The notes under the pieces: generated by a model
Databases searched by the model: none
Told to the model about the DNA's origin: nothing
Seen by the model: only the letters and a program-made list of their open reading frames with translations
Program-made: the position numbers and the translations under genes
IMG/VR virus record: IMGVR_UViG_3300034073_000538
Span: 1-35,545 of that record
DNA from: a virus
Length of the DNA: 35,545 nucleotides
Strand: one strand, 5' to 3'
In this document: one piece after another, positions 4,300 through 34,395 of the stretch
Layout of the letters: the number at the start of each line of letters is the position of its first letter
Numbering within the stretch: position 1 is the stretch's first letter

Positions 4300-4399
4300 T
4301 TTTTATTCCTCTCTCTTTAGACATAGGTTCCCCAAGGGTGGAAGCAATCCACCTAATCCCAGATGCTACTTTTATTAACTGACCATGTTTACTAAACAT
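4292..4399 (-). CDS. Possible 35-residue small protein
   Basis: A minus-strand frame from ATG 4399 reads MFSKHGQLIKVASGIRWIAS and ends after GIKNG, overlapping the start of gene 3919-4299 by 8 bases. The frame stays open upstream for a further 20 codons, with a TTG option ten codons before the ATG. The residue mix looks protein-like and the overlap suggests translational coupling. However, no convincing Shine-Dalgarno precedes the ATG and the start codon lies inside a palindrome. It could be a leader peptide or chance. Confidence 0.3.
   Translation of the reverse strand: MFSKHGQLIKVASGIRWIASTLGEPMSKERGIKNG
4385..4399. promoter_or_regulatory. Palindromic candidate operator
   Basis: ATGTTTA-C-TAAACAT is a perfect 7+1+7 palindrome about 85 bases before the replication gene at 4299. 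It has the size and symmetry of a dimeric repressor site. No known binding protein is identified. It coincides with the start of the possible small ORF. Confidence 0.4.
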
Positions 4400-4584
4400 C
4401 CTAGATACCCCAGAAGGAAGCGATTCATTCAAGTAAAGGTTTGTCCCACCTCTGTCCCTTTACTCTACCTCGATACCTCGCTTACAGTTCGAGACCTAAA
4501 CAGAGGGTGTCCCTGGTAGGTGTCTTTATTGCGATTCAGCCGATTCAGGCCATCAACTCATCGTGTCGCGGACGAGCCGGAAAT

Positions 4585-4712: not shown

Positions 4713-5039
4713 TTATACCTCAACTTTTGTAATTTTCACCATCCCCGCGATTTCGTCGGCAAAGTCAATAGTCAGCGGCCTAAAAAGCCTGTCATTGACC
4801 ATCCAAGCGTCTGCAACCCCATCTAAGCCCGATTTTATTGCGGCAAGGCAGTTATCGAGATCTCTGGCCTGTCTATTGGGCGGGTAGAACAAGATCATCA
4901 GATGACCCTGCATAGCTGGATGATTCTTAGCTATGGCGTAGCAAGCCAGGCGGTACTGCTTCGCGGCTTTCGCTTTGACCATGCGGTGAACTCTCGCATT
5001 GGGTGCTAGCTCTTTCGGATACCAAGGAAGCGTAAGCAT
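4713..5039 (-). CDS. rusA: RusA-like Holliday junction resolvase
   Basis: The 108-residue protein matches RusA in length and motifs. It has a short N-terminal beta strand with PNARVH, then RDLDN at 59-63 with D60/D62, D73 in SGLDG and D83 in VND, the acidic residues that bind metal in RusA. It should cut four-way junctions made by phage recombination and prepare DNA for packaging. It is the first leftward gene, with AAGGA upstream of the ATG, and it is followed by a terminator, so it may be transcribed separately from the rest of the leftward block. Confidence 0.93.
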   Translation of the reverse strand: MLTLPWYPKELAPNARVHRMVKAKAAKQYRLACYAIAKNHPAMQGHLMILFYPPNRQARDLDNCLAAIKSGLDGVADAWMVNDRLFRPLTIDFADEIAGMVKITKVEV

Positions 5040-18812: not shown

Positions 18813-19306
18813 TTGCAGTTAAGGATACCTACCGATTACTGCCGACCGCCGATGTCATTTATGGTTGCGACGAACATTGGTGGCCCTATCACCTTGAAAA
18901 GATCAAAGCCTTAACGGGTGCGGAGCTTTGGACACAATGCCCAAGAGCAGAAGAAAAGTACAAACTGAACCGCATACCTGGGGAAAGCAAGCCAGGACTC
19001 GGGCGGTCAATCATTCACTTTGGAAACAATTCCGGCTATCAGGCCGTGAACCTAGCTTTTCTCTTTGGGGTGACCGAGATAATACTTGTTGGCTTCGATA
19101 TGAAGATCACCGACAAAGTTCATTTCTTCGGCGATCATCCGTACCACAACAAATATCAAGGCCCGAATAATAATACAATGAAGCGGTGGGTCTTCAACTT
19201 CGAGCAATTAGCTAAAGACCTAGCTTCAGAGGGCGTTGTAGTGTTGAACGCTACACGCGATTCCGCATTGACCTGTTTTCCTAAAGTAGATTTGGAGGCC
19301 GTATGA
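18713..19306 (+). CDS. MptE/DUF115-like protein; start codon unresolved
   Basis: In this frame the bases encode TAYVVAGGPSFNLRDAET, VAVKDTYRLLP, DVIYGCDEHWW, then HFGNNSGYQAVNLAFLFGV, ILVGFDM and FFGDHPYHN, the motif order of the MptE/DUF115 family found in glycan-modification loci. The frame is open from 18656 but has no ATG, GTG or TTG before the GTG at 19046, far inside the conserved domain. An ATG at 18709 would be in frame if the G run at 18714-18717 were one base shorter. A -1 frameshift from gene 18522-18812 is another route. It overlaps the FkbM gene start by four bases. Confidence 0.72.
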   Translation, partial: WGGTAYVVAGGPSFNLRDAETIAQRQKDTGRRIVAVKDTYRLLPTADVIYGCDEHWWPYHLEKIKALTGAELWTQCPRAEEKYKLNRIPGESKPGLGRSIIHFGNNSGYQAVNLAFLFGVTEIILVGFDMKITDKVHFFGDHPYHNKYQGPNNNTMKRWVFNFEQLAKDLASEGVVVLNATRDSALTCFPKVDLEAV

Positions 19307-19962
19307 TCGAGTTTAGAGGCTGGCATTTCCCAGACGATGAGACGCATTACCAAGAAATTATGAATGCTGTTAACCGCATTGTTGACGGTGTTCCGACCTA
19401 TCAGTATTCCAAGTACGAAACCGCGAGAGGGCTTCTTAAAAATAATCGTCGGGCCATTGATGTTGGCGCGAATGTCGGTTTATGGTCGCGGTTCTTAGTC
19501 AAAGACTTCCAGAGCGTTGAGGCTTTCGAGCCTGTTCCTCTCTACGCGAGGTGCTTTGAAAAGAATGTAACTGGGGCAAACCTCTATCAAGTCGCACTAG
19601 GCAAAGAATCCAAGCGTATTTCAATGGCTCGCAAAGATGGTGGGGCTTGTGGCGATACAGCACCAGCGACAGGAGCCGAGGACGAGACGATTGTAGCCTC
19701 TCGGATACAGATGAAATATCTTGATTGGTACGAGTTCACAGATGTAGACCTGCTGAAGATTGACTGCGAGGGCTACGAGCTATTCGTCTTAGAGGGTGCA
19801 ATAGAAACAATCACCCGAAACAAGCCAGTCATTGTGGTCGAACAAAAACCAACTCACGGGCAAGCCTTTGGGGTGGAAGATGACGCAGGGGCTAAGTTCC
19901 TAGAGTCGTTGGGTGCAAAGCTCTATACGATTCTCAACGGCGACTATATCTACCGATGGTAA
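19303..19962 (+). CDS. FkbM family methyltransferase
   Basis: The 219-residue protein carries the FkbM SAM-binding signature: AIDVGANVGLWSRFLV near residue 51, VEAFEPVPLYARCFEKNV, then DLLKIDCEGYELFVLEGA near 148 and PVIVVEQKP. These enzymes methylate hydroxyl groups of sugars or related small groups. ATGA overlap with the MptE-like gene and overlap with the next glycosyltransferase place it in the sugar cassette, so a glycan on the virion or host surface is a likely substrate. Confidence 0.92.
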   Translation: MIEFRGWHFPDDETHYQEIMNAVNRIVDGVPTYQYSKYETARGLLKNNRRAIDVGANVGLWSRFLVKDFQSVEAFEPVPLYARCFEKNVTGANLYQVALGKESKRISMARKDGGACGDTAPATGAEDETIVASRIQMKYLDWYEFTDVDLLKIDCEGYELFVLEGAIETITRNKPVIVVEQKPTHGQAFGVEDDAGAKFLESLGAKLYTILNGDYIYRW

Positions 19963-20627
19963 GACTCTTTGTAGGCTACGACTGGCGCGAGGCTGCTGGT
20001 AGCTTCGTGTTCACTTCGAGCGTATTACGCAGGGCCTCTTGCCCTGTTTCTTTTTCTTACCTCGGTCAAGGCGACCTTCAAACGGGGACTAATGCCTTTA
20101 CAGTCTCACGCTTCACAGTCCCTTATCTCTGTGGATACCAGGGCAAGGCGATCTTTGCAGATGGGGCCGACATGATTTGCGTCGCAGATATAGCCGAGCT
20201 TCTTACTGAGCTAGAGACAATGACGAGCGCAGTCAAGGTTGTAAAACACCAGTACAAAACCAAGCACCCGATTAAATATCGAGAGACAGAGCTAGAAAGC
20301 CCGAATATTGACTACCCAAGAAAGAACTGGGCTTCGCTTATGCTCATCAACTGCGAGCATCAAGCATGGAGAAATGTAAGCCCTCCGACCTTATTAAATC
20401 AAAAGATGATCGACCTCTTAACCTTCAAGTTCATGCTGGACGATGAGATAGAGGAAATATCCGACTCGGGCTGGAATCGGTTAGTTGATGAGGGGCAGGC
20501 TGTCGAGGGTGCAAAGATTCTTCATTGGACTGCCGGAATACCAGCGTTTAAGTATTACGAGAACAGTCCTGGTGCTCAGTTATGGTGGGACGAATGTCGC
20601 AAGATGACTTACCCGTTACCTACCTAA
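19956..20627 (+). CDS. GT-A-type glycosyltransferase-like protein
   Basis: The 223-residue protein begins MVRLFVGYDWREAAGSFVFT and has FADGADMICVADIAELL near residue 67, which corresponds to the Asp-rich metal and sugar-nucleotide site of family-8-like transferases, and ILHWTAGIPAF near 197, the usual HxT/G end motif. It should transfer a sugar from a nucleotide donor. The canonical DxD is altered to DGAD, which needs checking. It overlaps both neighbouring genes. Confidence 0.75.
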   Translation: MVRLFVGYDWREAAGSFVFTSSVLRRASCPVSFSYLGQGDLQTGTNAFTVSRFTVPYLCGYQGKAIFADGADMICVADIAELLTELETMTSAVKVVKHQYKTKHPIKYRETELESPNIDYPRKNWASLMLINCEHQAWRNVSPPTLLNQKMIDLLTFKFMLDDEIEEISDSGWNRLVDEGQAVEGAKILHWTAGIPAFKYYENSPGAQLWWDECRKMTYPLPT

Positions 20628-21361
20628 CGCCATGTGGAACCTGTTACGCCTTCGGCAACGCCTTTGCTCAGGGATGCCGAGGTAGAGCAGTTACAAGTCT
20701 TAAATTACGCTCTGGTGGCTTTGCTGGCTTTGTTACCCCAGACCTCTACCCAGTCCTCAGAGAGGCGCAGAACGCAAAAAGACATTGGTACTACGGCGAT
20801 CACGCCTACTTCGGGCGCAAGAAGTATTACAGGGTCACTAAGAACAATTATCAGCATGACGCATTGGGTGAAGCAACTCCCGAGCGATTTGAAAAACTGC
20901 AAATAAAGATTAAACCTTGGCGCACCACAGGTTCAAAGATTCTCTTATGCGCTCAGACCCAGACCTTTTTTAACCTTCACGGGATGAGTCAACTGCAATG
21001 GATCAACGAGACGACTAATAAACTAAAGCGTTTTACAGACCGTAGGATCAAGGTTCGTGAGAAAATACGATCTTCACAGCCAGGAATGACGGAAAAGAAC
21101 TTCTGGTTAAGCCTTGATGATGATGTTTACGCAGTTGTTGTACACACATCTGCGGCTGGCGTTCAGGCTGCGTTGCATGGAATACCAGTCTTCACAACCG
21201 CAAAATGTGCGGCAAGTAACTTCGGCTCGATGGATTTATCTCTTATTGAGAATCCAGTAAGACCCGATAACCGCGAGCAAATGGCGTGGGTTTTAGCCGA
21301 TAACCAATGGACGCTAGAGGAAATCGGCAGAGGACAAGCATGGGAAAAACTAAGAAATTGA
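20594..21361 (+). CDS. Glycosyltransferase-like protein of the sugar cassette
   Basis: I start at the ATG at 20594; one at 20582 is also in frame, and both overlap the previous gene. The product is about 255 residues. It shows YGDHAYFGRKKYYRVTKNN near the start third, then VVHTSAAGVQAALHGIPVF and a final TLEEIGRGQAWEKL. The THTSA...ALHGIPVF segment resembles the donor-binding half of GT-B-like transferases used for surface polysaccharide. Specific activity cannot be read. Confidence 0.65.
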   Translation: MSQDDLPVTYLTPCGTCYAFGNAFAQGCRGRAVTSLKLRSGGFAGFVTPDLYPVLREAQNAKRHWYYGDHAYFGRKKYYRVTKNNYQHDALGEATPERFEKLQIKIKPWRTTGSKILLCAQTQTFFNLHGMSQLQWINETTNKLKRFTDRRIKVREKIRSSQPGMTEKNFWLSLDDDVYAVVVHTSAAGVQAALHGIPVFTTAKCAASNFGSMDLSLIENPVRPDNREQMAWVLADNQWTLEEIGRGQAWEKLRN

Positions 21362-22071
21362 TTAAGGTCGTCACGACATTCAACGCTAAAGGCTACGAGG
21401 AGTACGGCAAGCGGCTTATGGAGTCCTGGCGGCTTTGGCCTAAAGGCTTAGAGTTCGTCGTCTATCAAGAAGGATTTGATGTAGGCGGCAAAGAACTATT
21501 AGACATTAAGTGGCTCGTAGACTTCAAAGAGAGAAACAAAAACAAGAGATTCCAAGATTTCCGATGGGACGCAGTTCGGTTCGCTCATAAGACTGCGGCA
21601 GTTATTGATGCGGCGAAAGATGCTGATTTTCTAGTCTGGGTTGATGGCGATGTTTACACGCACAAGAGGATAACGGAAGTCGATTTAGCCTCTTGGCTAC
21701 CAGGGCCAGAAGAATACCTTTCTTGGCTCTGGCGGGACAAAATGTACCCAGAATGCGGCTTCTACATTCTTAGGCTAGACCATTCCAAACATAGGCAGAT
21801 CATGGCAGAATGGCAGAGATTATATGAGTCTGACGACATTTACAGACTTCAGGAGTGGCATGATTCTTTCGTTTTTGCTTACCTCATCAAACGATTTGCA
21901 GTAAATTGGAAAAGTCTTAGTGGCGATTACGCATGGCACAGTCACCCATTTATCAACGGCCCTCTCGGTGAGTTTATGGATCATTGCAAAGGGCCAAGGA
22001 AGACTCAAGGCAGGTCGAACCCGTGGGACTTGGCGGTAAAGCGTAGTGAGGATCATTGGAGAAAAGAATGA
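21340..22071 (+). CDS. Glycosyltransferase with DxD motif
   Basis: The ATG at 21340 has AGAGGA upstream; the earlier in-frame start lies deep in the previous gene. The 243-residue protein has a GT-A start (KLIKVVTTFNAKGYEEYGKR), then VWVDGDVYTHKR with D102/D104 as the DxD metal site, and later an EWHDSFVFAYL acceptor-side motif. It ends the sugar cassette, and its stop overlaps the connector gene start as ATGA. Confidence 0.78.
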   Translation: MGKTKKLIKVVTTFNAKGYEEYGKRLMESWRLWPKGLEFVVYQEGFDVGGKELLDIKWLVDFKERNKNKRFQDFRWDAVRFAHKTAAVIDAAKDADFLVWVDGDVYTHKRITEVDLASWLPGPEEYLSWLWRDKMYPECGFYILRLDHSKHRQIMAEWQRLYESDDIYRLQEWHDSFVFAYLIKRFAVNWKSLSGDYAWHSHPFINGPLGEFMDHCKGPRKTQGRSNPWDLAVKRSEDHWRKE

Positions 22072-30599: not shown

Positions 30600-32243
30600 A
30601 TGGCAATAACACCCTTACCAGCCGCACCCGAGACTACTGACACACCGCAACAATTTAATACCAAGGCTTTTGCCTGGGTGCAGTCGTTAGACACCTTTGT
30701 CACCGAGGCTAACGCGCAAGCGACGACAGTTAACTCAGACGCTTCCTCGGCCTCTAGCTCGGCCTCTACTGCAACCACAAAAGCGGCAGAAGCAGCAGCA
30801 AGCGCGGCGGCGGCGTCTCAAACCGCGAATGTTACCTTATGGGTAAGCGGTACAACCTACGCAGTAGGTGCCAATGTTTTTAGTCCAGTTACCTTTCAGA
30901 CCTACAGAAGCAAATCGGCTTTCACTAGCACGACTGACCCTAGCGCAGATGACACCAACTGGGAGCAACTGACAGCGGTTACACCTGACGAAGTTTTAAC
31001 ACCAAGTAATGTATCTCCGGCTGATTTGGCAACTGGAATTTTAGACACTCCAACGTTAACAGGCTCTACCTACTTCAGTCTTTATGGGAAAACTCAGAAA
31101 TCGAGCCAATGGCAGATTGATACGAACGCTAACTTTAACTCATCGCCGTTAGTTTATGACTCAGGAGAGGTCTTGGGTGTCGGAGTCACGCAGGTTGTTC
31201 CTTCGGGTAATCTCCAGGTTTCGACAACCTATTACTGGCGCGTTCGTTACCGAGATTCTGATGATGTTTATTCCGAGTATTCGACCCCAACGGAGTTTGC
31301 TACAGCAGCGGCTTTTAATGATTTTATTGCCACACCTACAGCAACTCCGAGCATTGGTGGGGCGTTAGAGGGTGGTTTCCACACGGGTCTTATCTGGAAT
31401 CAGGTAACGCAATCAGCTACCAGCACCACAATCGGAACTGGGTCTAAGACATTTACGGTTACGGATGCGGCCCCCTTGTTCTATTCAGGACAAGCAGTTG
31501 AGGTAAGAAGTCGTGCCAACCCCTCGACCGCGAGGATGAAGGGAACGGTTACAGCGTCTAACGGAACCAGCCTAACTGTCAACGTAACGTCTGTAGACGG
31601 TTCTGGAACGCTAACCGACTGGTCAATCATGGCGAAGTTTCGTGTGATTGTTGCGCCTAAGTCGTCTGGGGAAAGTTCCAGCAAACAGTATAAGAACTCT
31701 AATGACGGAACCATCGCAGCGGCTGGTACGCTCACGGAGGGTCTAAAGGCAACGCTGGCATTAGTCGCAGATGGAAACTCTACCGTCTACCCCGCAGCCC
31801 ACTTCTGTAATGACCTTTCTATCGGTGGATATTCCGACTGGTATCTACCAGCACGAGATGAGCTAGAGTTGATTTGGCGCAACCTTAAACCCGTTACAAA
31901 CAACAACTACACGACAACCGATAGACCTACAGGTGCAACACCTGATTACAAAAACCTTGGTTCTTTAGGCGATGTAGCCAATACGCATGGACTGAACAAT
32001 AACTCAGACCCGCAAGGTGTCGCTTATACAACTACCGTTCCTGGTCAAACCGCTGTTGCAGCGTTCCAGTCTGGTGGCGCAGAAGCGATGACCTTCGGTA
32101 GCAACGTTTATTGGTCGAGTACGGAGTACAGCACCACGTACGCTTGGTACCAGAACTACAATACAAGCAGTCCGGGCTACCAGGACAACGCCAGTAAGAG
32201 CAATAGCTTCTACGTTAGGGCTGTCCGGCGATCAATCATTTAA
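30600..32243 (+). CDS. DGR-diversified tail fibre with DUF1566/C-type-lectin-like end
   Basis: GAGG precedes the ATG. The 547-residue protein has, in order: an N-terminal tail-attachment part; a Ser/Ala-rich coiled coil (about 45-75); a CBM-like module (about 80-120) like that in the previous gene; a fibronectin-like domain with YYWRVRYRDSDD (near 218); and a DUF1566-type domain from about 350, with GGYSDWYLPARDELELIW (near 404) and YWSSTEYS. The last 37 residues are the variable repeat. Codons 514, 517, 524, 527, 529, 531, 532, 534 and 537 have departed from the template. It is the expected receptor-binding protein. Confidence 0.92.
   Translation: MAITPLPAAPETTDTPQQFNTKAFAWVQSLDTFVTEANAQATTVNSDASSASSSASTATTKAAEAAASAAAASQTANVTLWVSGTTYAVGANVFSPVTFQTYRSKSAFTSTTDPSADDTNWEQLTAVTPDEVLTPSNVSPADLATGILDTPTLTGSTYFSLYGKTQKSSQWQIDTNANFNSSPLVYDSGEVLGVGVTQVVPSGNLQVSTTYYWRVRYRDSDDVYSEYSTPTEFATAAAFNDFIATPTATPSIGGALEGGFHTGLIWNQVTQSATSTTIGTGSKTFTVTDAAPLFYSGQAVEVRSRANPSTARMKGTVTASNGTSLTVNVTSVDGSGTLTDWSIMAKFRVIVAPKSSGESSSKQYKNSNDGTIAAAGTLTEGLKATLALVADGNSTVYPAAHFCNDLSIGGYSDWYLPARDELELIWRNLKPVTNNNYTTTDRPTGATPDYKNLGSLGDVANTHGLNNNSDPQGVAYTTTVPGQTAVAAFQSGGAEAMTFGSNVYWSSTEYSTTYAWYQNYNTSSPGYQDNASKSNSFYVRAVRRSII
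32130..32231 (+). repeat. DGR variable repeat (VR)
   Basis: These 102 bases at the 3' end of the tail-fibre gene align without gaps to 32740-32841. They differ at 11 sites (32139, 32148, 32170, 32178, 32184, 32190, 32191, 32194, 32200, 32208, 32209), all A in the template. Bases 32210-32231 are an unmutated 22-bp shared end with a GC-rich GGGCTGTCCGGCG tract, the expected IMH-like homing mark. Confidence 0.95.
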
Positions 32244-32257
32244 TCCTTTAGTCCTTT

Positions 32258-32617
32258 ATGGCCCAAATTAAACACCTTCCTATCTATAAAACTGCTTATG
32301 AACTATTGGAAACAACGGTGAGAGTTACAAAGGATTTCCCAAGGGATTTTAAGTATTCCTTGGGCGATAAGATTCGAGGCGAGGTCATTGATCTTGTTGT
32401 TTTTATTTTCAAAGCTAACGCTACCAAGAAGGAAAGGGCTGAACACGCTGGCAAGATACTCGAAAGAATTGAGGTTATTGACCTTCTAGTCAGACTTACA
32501 AAAGACTTAAGGTTGATAACTGTCAAACAGTTTTCAGAGATAGTATTTTTATCCGATAGCCTTGGTCGTCAAGCACAAGGCTGGATCAAGCACTCAGTAT
32601 CGCTGGCAGAGTCTTAG
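32258..32617 (+). CDS. avd: Avd, accessory variability determinant
   Basis: The 119-residue protein is all-helical and basic, starting with HLPIYKTAYELLETTVRVTK and continuing FPRDFKYSLGDKIRGEVIDL, the S23-ribosomal/four-helix-bundle pattern of Avd. It sits between the variable repeat and the template repeat, as in the BPP-1 DGR. In that system Avd forms a basic ring that binds the reverse transcriptase and the template RNA and is required for cDNA synthesis. Confidence 0.92.
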   Translation: MAQIKHLPIYKTAYELLETTVRVTKDFPRDFKYSLGDKIRGEVIDLVVFIFKANATKKERAEHAGKILERIEVIDLLVRLTKDLRLITVKQFSEIVFLSDSLGRQAQGWIKHSVSLAES

Positions 32618-32857
32618 AGGCTACGGTGTCTAAGAGAGTCCATCTGATCGGGCCGTACCCGTTGGGCAACCAACGAAAGGGCTGTAAGGCCAGTTTCTTA
32701 GCGGAGGATTCTGCTAAGCAATGTGTGAGTGTACGGCATAGCACCACGAACGCTTGGAACCAGAACTACAATACAAGCAATCCGGGCAACCAGAACAACA
32801 ACAATAAGAACAATAGCAACTACGTTAGGGCTGTCCGGCGACCAGAGGCAATATGCA
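32618..32857 (+). ncRNA. DGR template RNA region
   Basis: This stretch between avd and the RT contains the template repeat and structured flanks. Upstream of the repeat are CGTTGG-GCAA-CCAACG (32660-32675, a 6-bp stem with a GNRA-type loop) and CTTAGC...GCTAAG (32697-32718). An open frame runs through the repeat but it is not expected to make a protein. The transcript end points cannot be told. Confidence 0.7.
32740..32841 (+). repeat. DGR template repeat (TR)
   Basis: This invariant template is 102 bases long and rich in AAC/AAT codons when read in the VR frame (about 13 Asn codons). Only A positions differ from the variable repeat: 11 of about 41 adenines and none of about 61 other bases. 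Between its end and the RT start codon there are only 16 bases. Confidence 0.95.
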
Positions 32858-33970
32858 ATGCTTGATTTTCCTGTCTCTGATCTTTTCCAAGCCTACTATG
32901 ACTGTCGAAAGACCAAGCGAAACACTTGGAACGCCAGGATATTTGAGGAGCGTTTGGAAAAAAACCTGATGGATTTGTACTACGACTTAAAAGAGGGGTC
33001 GTACAAAATTGGCAGGTCTATTTGTTTCTTAGTGGAAAAACCCAAAATTAGAGAAATTTGGGCGGCTAACTTTAGAGACAGAATTGTTCATCACCTGCTT
33101 TATGGCAAGATTAGAGACAGGTTTCACAACAGTTTTATTTACGACTCTTACGCATGTATCCCAAGGAAGGGAACACATAGGGCGGTTGACAGGGCCGAGC
33201 AACTATGTCGAAGCCTGACTAGAGACTACGTAGACAATGCTTATTACCTAAAACTTGACATTGCCAACTACTTTGTAAGCATTAGAAAAGACATTCTTTC
33301 GACCCTTATAGCAAAGAAAGTTCCGGAAAAAGACTGGATGGGGCTTGCAGATCAAATACTTAGTCACGACCCAACAGAGAACGTCTACATAAAAAGCGAC
33401 CCAAAACTGCTTGAACTAATCCCGCCTCATAAGAGCCTCTTTGCGGCAAAAGGTCATGGCTTGCCTATTGGGAACTTATCTAGTCAATTCTTCGCAAACA
33501 TTTACCTCAACGAACTCGACCAGTTTGCCAAGCATCGGTTGAAGATAACTCATATGGTTCGCTACGTTGACGACATTGTGATATTTGACAAAGACCCACA
33601 AAAACTCCACTCCTACATTAAGCCTATGGATGACTACATAAGGGAAAACCTCAAGATACACTTTCACCCCAATAAGATTGAAATAAATACTCTCGAAAAC
33701 GGGTTTAAGATGCTTGGCTTTGTTGTAAGGCCAAGAGCCAGGTATATCCGTCAAGAGACTGTTCAAAGGGCCACAAGTAAGCTCTGGTTAATGCTTAGAA
33801 CCAAAGAGCCAAAGCGAAATATTAGGGCCGTGGTCAATAGCTACCTCGGCATTTTTAGGCAGTCTAAGTCGTGGCGGGAGCGCAAAAAATTAGCTATTAT
33901 GCTTAGTCAGTACGGCTGGTGGTTTTCGCCTAAACTTGATAAAGTCATTCTTAGAAGGGGTGTGGCATGA
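32858..33970 (+). CDS. DGR reverse transcriptase
   Basis: I place the start at the ATG at 32858 with AGAGG upstream. The open frame extends to 32729 through the template repeat, but that extension is the template read out of frame. The 370-residue protein has the DGR-RT marks: KPKIREIWAANFRDRIVHHL, LKLDIANYF with D134, the DGR-type GLPIGNLSSQ at 201-210, and YVDD at 236-239 with both catalytic Asp. It copies the template RNA with adenine-directed errors. Its stop overlaps the next tail gene as ATGA, so it is co-transcribed with late genes. Confidence 0.95.
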   Translation: MLDFPVSDLFQAYYDCRKTKRNTWNARIFEERLEKNLMDLYYDLKEGSYKIGRSICFLVEKPKIREIWAANFRDRIVHHLLYGKIRDRFHNSFIYDSYACIPRKGTHRAVDRAEQLCRSLTRDYVDNAYYLKLDIANYFVSIRKDILSTLIAKKVPEKDWMGLADQILSHDPTENVYIKSDPKLLELIPPHKSLFAAKGHGLPIGNLSSQFFANIYLNELDQFAKHRLKITHMVRYVDDIVIFDKDPQKLHSYIKPMDDYIRENLKIHFHPNKIEINTLENGFKMLGFVVRPRARYIRQETVQRATSKLWLMLRTKEPKRNIRAVVNSYLGIFRQSKSWRERKKLAIMLSQYGWWFSPKLDKVILRRGVA

Positions 33971-34395
33971 AAACAATCAAATTTACTTATGTTGATTCAG
34001 TAACCCAGATTTCGGTGGAGAAGGAACCTGCTAAACACGGGCCACAATTTCCGAAGATTAAGGGATTGAACTATCTGTTTGCCCTAGAGCGCAAATACCC
34101 AACGATGGTTCCTGAGTTTATTGGTGAGTGCGATGATGACGCAGAGCTAATTGACGGATTCCTGAAGGTTTTAGACGAGAGTGAGGTTGCTCAAGAGCAA
34201 CAGGCAGAAGCCGACTCCCAGGCGCACAGGGTTAGGGTAGACAGGACATTGCGACTTCAGGCATCAGACTGGACGCAACTTGCGGATGCAACTGTAGACC
34301 AGACTGCATGGGCAACCTACAGACAAGCCCTGAGAGACGTTCCTGCCCAAGAAGGTTTCCCTTGGAATGTTACTTGGCCCGAAATCCCGGAGTAG
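33967..34395 (+). CDS. Tail fibre assembly/chaperone-like protein
   Basis: The 142-residue protein ends with the pattern RTLRLQASDWTQLADATV and WATYRQALRDVPAQEGFPWN, the signature of phage tail assembly chaperone proteins encoded after tail fibre genes. The first half is less typical and acidic. It probably helps fold or attach the diversified fibre, from which it is separated only by the DGR genes. Confidence 0.85.
   Translation: MKTIKFTYVDSVTQISVEKEPAKHGPQFPKIKGLNYLFALERKYPTMVPEFIGECDDDAELIDGFLKVLDESEVAQEQQAEADSQAHRVRVDRTLRLQASDWTQLADATVDQTAWATYRQALRDVPAQEGFPWNVTWPEIPE

Follow-up and report, generated by a model that had tools for sequence, protein, structure and literature searches.

The viral contig IMGVR_UViG_3300034073_000538, analysed over its full length of 35,545 bases (hereafter the window), contains a genuine and complete diversity-generating retroelement (DGR), which comprises a target gene ending in a variable repeat (VR), the gene avd, a template repeat (TR) and a gene of reverse transcriptase (RT). 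This DGR probably works. According to comparison with related loci (labelled by L and a number), it appears, with a probability of roughly 0.8, to be a functional phage element with a scaffold RNA resembling the Rfam family RT-15, which lies 5′ of the template and whose leader arm, together with the 3′ junction of TR, would hold the template as a loop. The order VR, avd, TR, RT on one strand, for which the original prediction likened the cassette to that of phage BPP-1, was found for the genes, but the noncoding parts deviate from it in the side of the scaffold and in the hairpin behind VR. The parts of the cassette are as follows.

30600–32243, plus strand: target gene for a 547-amino-acid tail-associated protein (C-terminal Lcl_C domain, phrog_4245, fold matches to 8q4e and 4eps)
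32130–32231, plus strand: VR, at the 3′ end of the target gene
32210–32231, plus strand: shared unmutated 3′ end of VR, resembling an initiation of mutagenic homing (IMH) site
32258–32617, plus strand: avd, 119 amino acids (PF22296 bAvd above cutoff; phrog_3206 “Avd protein of DGR”, E 6e-27)
32612–32737, plus strand: structured leader RNA, RT-15-like (covariation in 21 leaders; covariance model R1)
32612–32635, 32660–32675, 32680–32691 and 32697–32718, plus strand: hairpins of the leader RNA
32644–32650, plus strand: leader arm CUGAUCG, predicted to pair with the TR 3′ junction
32652–32657 with 32732–32737, plus strand: closing helix of the leader RNA
32740–32841, plus strand: TR, from the repeat comparison with VR
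32839–32845, plus strand: TR 3′-junction arm CGACCAG, the predicted partner of the leader arm, straddling the 3′ end of TR
32858 (ATG) to 33970 (end of stop codon), plus strand: DGR reverse transcriptase, 370 amino acids (PF00078 RVT_1, phrog_1423)

Direct comparison of VR with TR revealed 11 mismatches over 102 nucleotides (nt) aligned without gaps at an offset of 610, and each of the 11 falls on A in the template, exactly as had been predicted. The A content of TR is 41/102, and the chance that 11 random mismatches would all hit A is 1.8e-5. The predicted number of altered codons, nine, was also registered (Y, Y, S, Y, D, A, S, S and F in VR), although all of them, and not just most as expected, code for Asn in the template. 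The common GC-rich end was found as described: bases 32210–32231 are identical to 32820–32841, with 14 G or C among the 22. The RT possesses both anticipated motifs, YVDD and GLPIGNLSSQ, its active-site motifs are intact and its best match among solved structures is 8ub7_A (E 1e-35). The avd gene is intact as well; a search of solved structures by sequence yielded no relative of Avd. A contig-wide search for a second VR found none; in L010, L012 and L013 a single TR is accompanied by two VRs in adjacent target genes.

The RNA preceding the template is the part that sets this cassette apart from BPP-1. Twenty-one leaders located between avd and TR fit one structure of 33 pairs, 26 of which show double-sided (compensatory) changes. 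Pairing is present in 97.5% of cells, compared with 75.1% after shuffling and 28–45% in slid registers, and none of 500 shuffles reached any of the measures. The structure begins within the final codons of avd, where synonymous divergence falls to 8/48. The Rfam scan of the window gave no match even at E 10, and RT-15 was not detected at the gathering threshold in L003, L006, L007 and L038. Strong matches to RT-15 (RF03018) are located between avd and TR in the DGRs of Pseudomonas phage Cruim01, Shewanella phage vB_Sb_QDWS, Burkholderia phage Magia and Pseudomonas phage phPA-G, whose RTs are about 44–46% identical to that of the window. These DGRs share with it Avd, a short gap between TR and RT, structured RNA between avd and TR, and a leader arm that can pair with the end of TR; their leaders are canonical RT-15 of about 190 nt, whereas the window leader is shorter. 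Covariance model R1, representing the window clade, gives hits (E 5e-6 to 9e-5) in L127, L128, L129 and L012 whose ends lie no more than 3 nt from the RT-15 boundaries. The window leader and RT-15 have in common their position, the order of helices and a conserved AUC-G segment preceding the closing helix, but in the window one arm is reduced and the score lies below Rfam detection. The coincidence of R1 matches with RT-15 boundaries thus indicates, at the level of sequence, that RT-15 is a leader of DGR templates and that the window leader is its shortened and diverged relative. Unfiltered scanning of BPP-1 with the leader model gave nothing convincing. No link of RT-15 to DGRs was found in a literature search that did not take in the RT-15 source paper and the 2025 paper on BPP-1 RNA structure, and the 5′ arrangement may have been noticed before.

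The long-range helix between CUGAUCG and CGACCAG was proposed by RNAalifold for the leader, TR and RT start taken together. It also ranked first of 16,279 pairs of six-base windows, one in the leader and one downstream, when these were scored by paired fraction and covariation without any folding program. In the window clade, leaders pair with their own TR partners in 75 of 84 cells; no one of 10,000 swaps equalled this value, and slid registers gave 25–53. The homologous arm of the sister RT-15 clade, ending in AAUCUG, pairs with the TR end beginning with CAGAU, and its variable flank is paired in 106/190 cells (0/20,000 swaps equal). Since VR ends resemble TR ends, the leader arm was compared with both repeats, and this comparison bears on another explanation, namely that the arm serves mainly as a guide recognising the 3′ end of VR in target DNA, in place of the missing BPP-1 hairpin. 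The arm is indeed complementary to VR as well, nearly every VR of the RT-15 clade has the sequence CAGATT, a perfect match to AAUCUG, and a hairpin of the BPP-1 kind is lacking behind VR. Covariation, however, was registered with TR (78/132 cells against 61.9 expected, 0/5000 swaps as good) and not with VR (64/132 against 58.7 expected, 503/5000 swaps as good), and among the 64 cells of the window clade where the two repeats differ the arm pairs with TR in 52 and with VR in 26. A guide for VR is therefore an unlikely main role, and pairing with the 3′ junction of TR, which would close the template into a loop, is shown at the level of sequence by the covariation in both clades.

Some observations weigh against a leader-bound template loop. 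In the window taken alone the helix with TR contains one A–C mismatch, and VR pairs with the arm equally well. The swap tests incompletely correct for relatedness of the sequences, and model R1 missed three RT-15 loci (L130, L010 and L094). Finally, synonymous divergence in the 5′ codons of RT is 0.38 compared with about 0.46 over the whole gene, which allows these codons a weak role as a spacer 3′ of TR.

Assuming that the template is nevertheless held by the leader, the following sequence of events can be proposed. The avd–TR transcript would carry a structured scaffold RNA directly 5′ of the template, and the A-rich template itself would form a closed loop between the closing helix at the 5′ end of TR and the leader–TR helix at its 3′ end. 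RT and Avd, presumably bound to the 5′ scaffold, would copy this loop misincorporating opposite A, with the closing helix as the 5′ limit of the copied segment and the leader–TR helix as the 3′ start of cDNA synthesis. The cDNA would then be substituted for VR, at the 3′ end of the region coding for the target's C-type-lectin domain, and non-A positions of VR would stay locked to TR. Annealed to TR, the arm has the orientation of a primer, so a nucleotide following it could prime. It is conceivable, though we propose it only tentatively, that in this large lineage of DGRs the 5′ side both organises and primes cDNA synthesis, with the conserved G just after the annealed arm supplying the 2′-OH. 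Such priming would have a retron-like topology, being a mirror image of BPP-1 with its adenine primer in the 3′ spacer. In retrons the 5′ structured RNA is followed by the template, and the 5′ and 3′ segments are paired around it. The likeness would concern topology only; the window has a DGR-type RT with Avd, A-mutagenesis and homing into VR.

Comparison with the DGR of BPP-1 (mtd-avd-TR-brt, NC_005357) specifies what is common and what is not. Gene order, A-specific mismatches between TR and VR, the pair of Avd and RT, and the C-type-lectin target at the 3′ end of a tail gene are shared, as had been supposed, but the window lacks the 3′ spacer RNA and the hairpin behind VR, and its structured RNA occupies the opposite side of TR. 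In BPP-1 TR follows avd at a distance of 0 nt and is parted from brt by a structured spacer of 144 nt; in the window the distances before and after TR are 122 and 16 nt. The BPP-1 spacer matches the Rfam family Phage_DGR; in the same place the BPP-1-like DGRs L020, L022, L025, L027 and L109 have another Rfam family, RT-14. Neither Phage_DGR nor RT-14 was matched in the window by the Rfam scan. Measured loci of the window type have about 120–210 nt before TR and mostly 0–31 nt after it (in those with 3′ gaps of about 55 the repeat finder clipped TR, and two loci stand out with about 310 nt), while BPP-1-like loci have 3–75 and 137–235 nt, respectively, and Patescibacteria-type DGRs form a third spacing set. 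A tree built from 69 RT rows unites the BPP-1-like set in one group (99/94) and puts the window type inside a 100/100 clade that includes rearranged avd–TR cassettes; the exact place of BPP-1 is unsure because it is a long branch.

A hairpin of the BPP-1 type (GC-rich, 7–10 bp, GRNA loop, 4–34 bp behind VR) is absent in the window, L003 and L006, and GRNA-loop hairpins were found behind VR in none of 45 window-type loci versus 11 of 18 BPP-1-like ones (GATA, GAAA or GAGA loops). A hairpin or cruciform behind VR of the window was considered and rejected, as none forms there. The AT-rich stretch at 32232–32262, ATTTAATCCTTTAGTCCTTTATGG, contains a direct repeat, forms no hairpin and is nearly unchanged in L003 and L004.

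One could still suppose a plain BPP-1-type DGR, with the 3′ spacer accommodated within the first RT codons and the 5′ structure only stopping reverse transcription or regulating translation of avd and RT. The common gene order favours this supposition. So does the fact that in BPP-1 cDNA synthesis is terminated by a motif in the last part of avd (PMC12875486). The 3′ spacer of BPP-1 recruits RT–Avd, and an adenine within it primes cDNA (PMC12875486). The gap of 16 nt in the window, however, is too short for this spacer, both spacer families which BPP-1 and its kin carry 3′ of TR are missing, and covariation links the leader arm to the 3′ junction of TR. A spacer hidden inside the RT start was rejected, as the first 50 RT codons are without marked synonymous constraint. 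The supposition is thus rather improbable. Reading of TR in frame into RT from GTG 32729, as an N-terminal extension, was judged a chance event because the length of the TR–RT gap varies between relatives. Comparison by gene order with BPP-1 conceals a different RNA arrangement.

The way in which the repeats changed in related viruses was evaluated with L003, whose RT is 94% identical to that of the window at unchanged layout and spacing of the cassette. Its own VR and TR mismatch at template A in 18 of 20 cases. Between the window and L003 the TRs differ at 5/102 positions and the VRs at 23; of the 38 sites that are A in both templates the VRs disagree at 18, and of the 60 that are A in neither, at 2. 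Upstream of VR, 238 of the 306 differences between the two target genes fall on third codon positions, compared with 3 of 23 inside VR. The TRs of three lineages contain 11 differing columns, and VR matches the base of its own TR in 18 of 20 informative non-A cells. As VRs mirror lineage-specific bases of TR, each lineage has rewritten its VR from TR on its own, so that transfer continued, which gives an indirect answer to the check by deep reads suggested with the original prediction; on the sequence evidence the transfer is one-way, from a nearly fixed TR to a VR that varies at A sites. The three contigs available for one relative (the same virus in three records) have identical 12-kb stretches and VRs and are hence uninformative on variation in a population, within which the DGR may well continue its activity. 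That this is a decayed or inactive remnant, in which VR is no longer rewritten, is hardly credible, for only the identity of these three VRs speaks for it, whereas RT and avd are intact, non-A sites of VR are locked to TR though flanking synonymous sites diverged, the leader RNA is maintained by compensatory change, and true decay looks otherwise, as in L032/L152 without TR and most of RT.

In L004, L005 and L006 VR is 6 nt longer than TR within an AAC-rich stretch (in L004 VR is at about 4306–4416 and TR at about 4922–5023), and two non-A mismatches remain at the best placement of the gap. Slippage during copying of (AAC)n possibly accounts for the longer VR, and VR length may then vary too.

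The target protein contains PF07603 Lcl_C (formerly DUF1566) at residues 392–543 (E 9e-10). A model of its C-terminal domain (residues 336–547), built on 59 sequences from the window and the related loci, has pLDDT 83 and pTM 0.85. It matches 4eps (Z 10.3), the C-terminal domain of Legionella Lcl (Z 9.6) and Bdellovibrio Bd2740 (Z 7.9); C-type lectins scored Z 5 to 6.5, and Mtd of BPP-1 gave a weak match with Z about 5, in agreement with a predicted C-type-lectin fold of the diversified domain. The nine variable residues (model positions 179, 182, 189, 192, 194, 196, 197, 199 and 202) are placed in or between its last strands, where they had been expected. The product is a probable tail fibre or receptor-binding protein; the first term comes from its position and from the fibre-assembly-like gene downstream, and receptor binding is what we infer for it. 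DUF1566 domains are established DGR targets (PMC4159848, PMC6642488, PMC8143477), and in Bacuni phages of Bacteroides uniformis and in DGRs of the human microbiome VR likewise occupies the 3′ end of a DUF1566 C-type-lectin domain (PMC8143477, PMC4159848, PMC6642488). The window phage differs from these, the target itself without qualitative difference, and as a DGR with a DUF1566 target the cassette is of a known, ordinary kind.

Upstream of the cassette the contig has head-packaging, tape-measure and tail genes, and the first gene past it is the following.

33967–34395, plus strand: tail-fibre-assembly-like protein (phrog_8716, 4912, 4628)

Four additional genes lie between head and tail genes at 19303–22071; the first is methyltransferase-like (phrog_8156) and the other three may act on sugars. 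Among relatives, the decayed L032/L152 (IMGVR_UViG_3300045970_000191; L032:7289–7791) retains target and avd intact, TR is gone and RT is reduced to its last 50 residues. L033, L034 and L035 have close relatives of the target domain (52–57% identical) and no avd or RT in available flanks, which suggests gain or loss of the cassette next to the target gene. In L008, L011 and L089 avd and the leader RNA stand together on the strand opposite to RT, and avd, leader and TR may therefore move as a unit apart from it.

DGRs are numerous, with over 30,000 in one survey (PMC8144416). Their mechanism is known almost only from BPP-1. If the whole RT clade, including cultured phages of Pseudomonas, Shewanella and Burkholderia, has a 5′ scaffold paired to the end of the template, the BPP-1 rules of a 3′ spacer and a target hairpin should not be assumed in the annotation or study of its DGRs. 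This would also suggest a role for two Rfam families, with RT-15 functioning 5′ and RT-14 3′ of TR.

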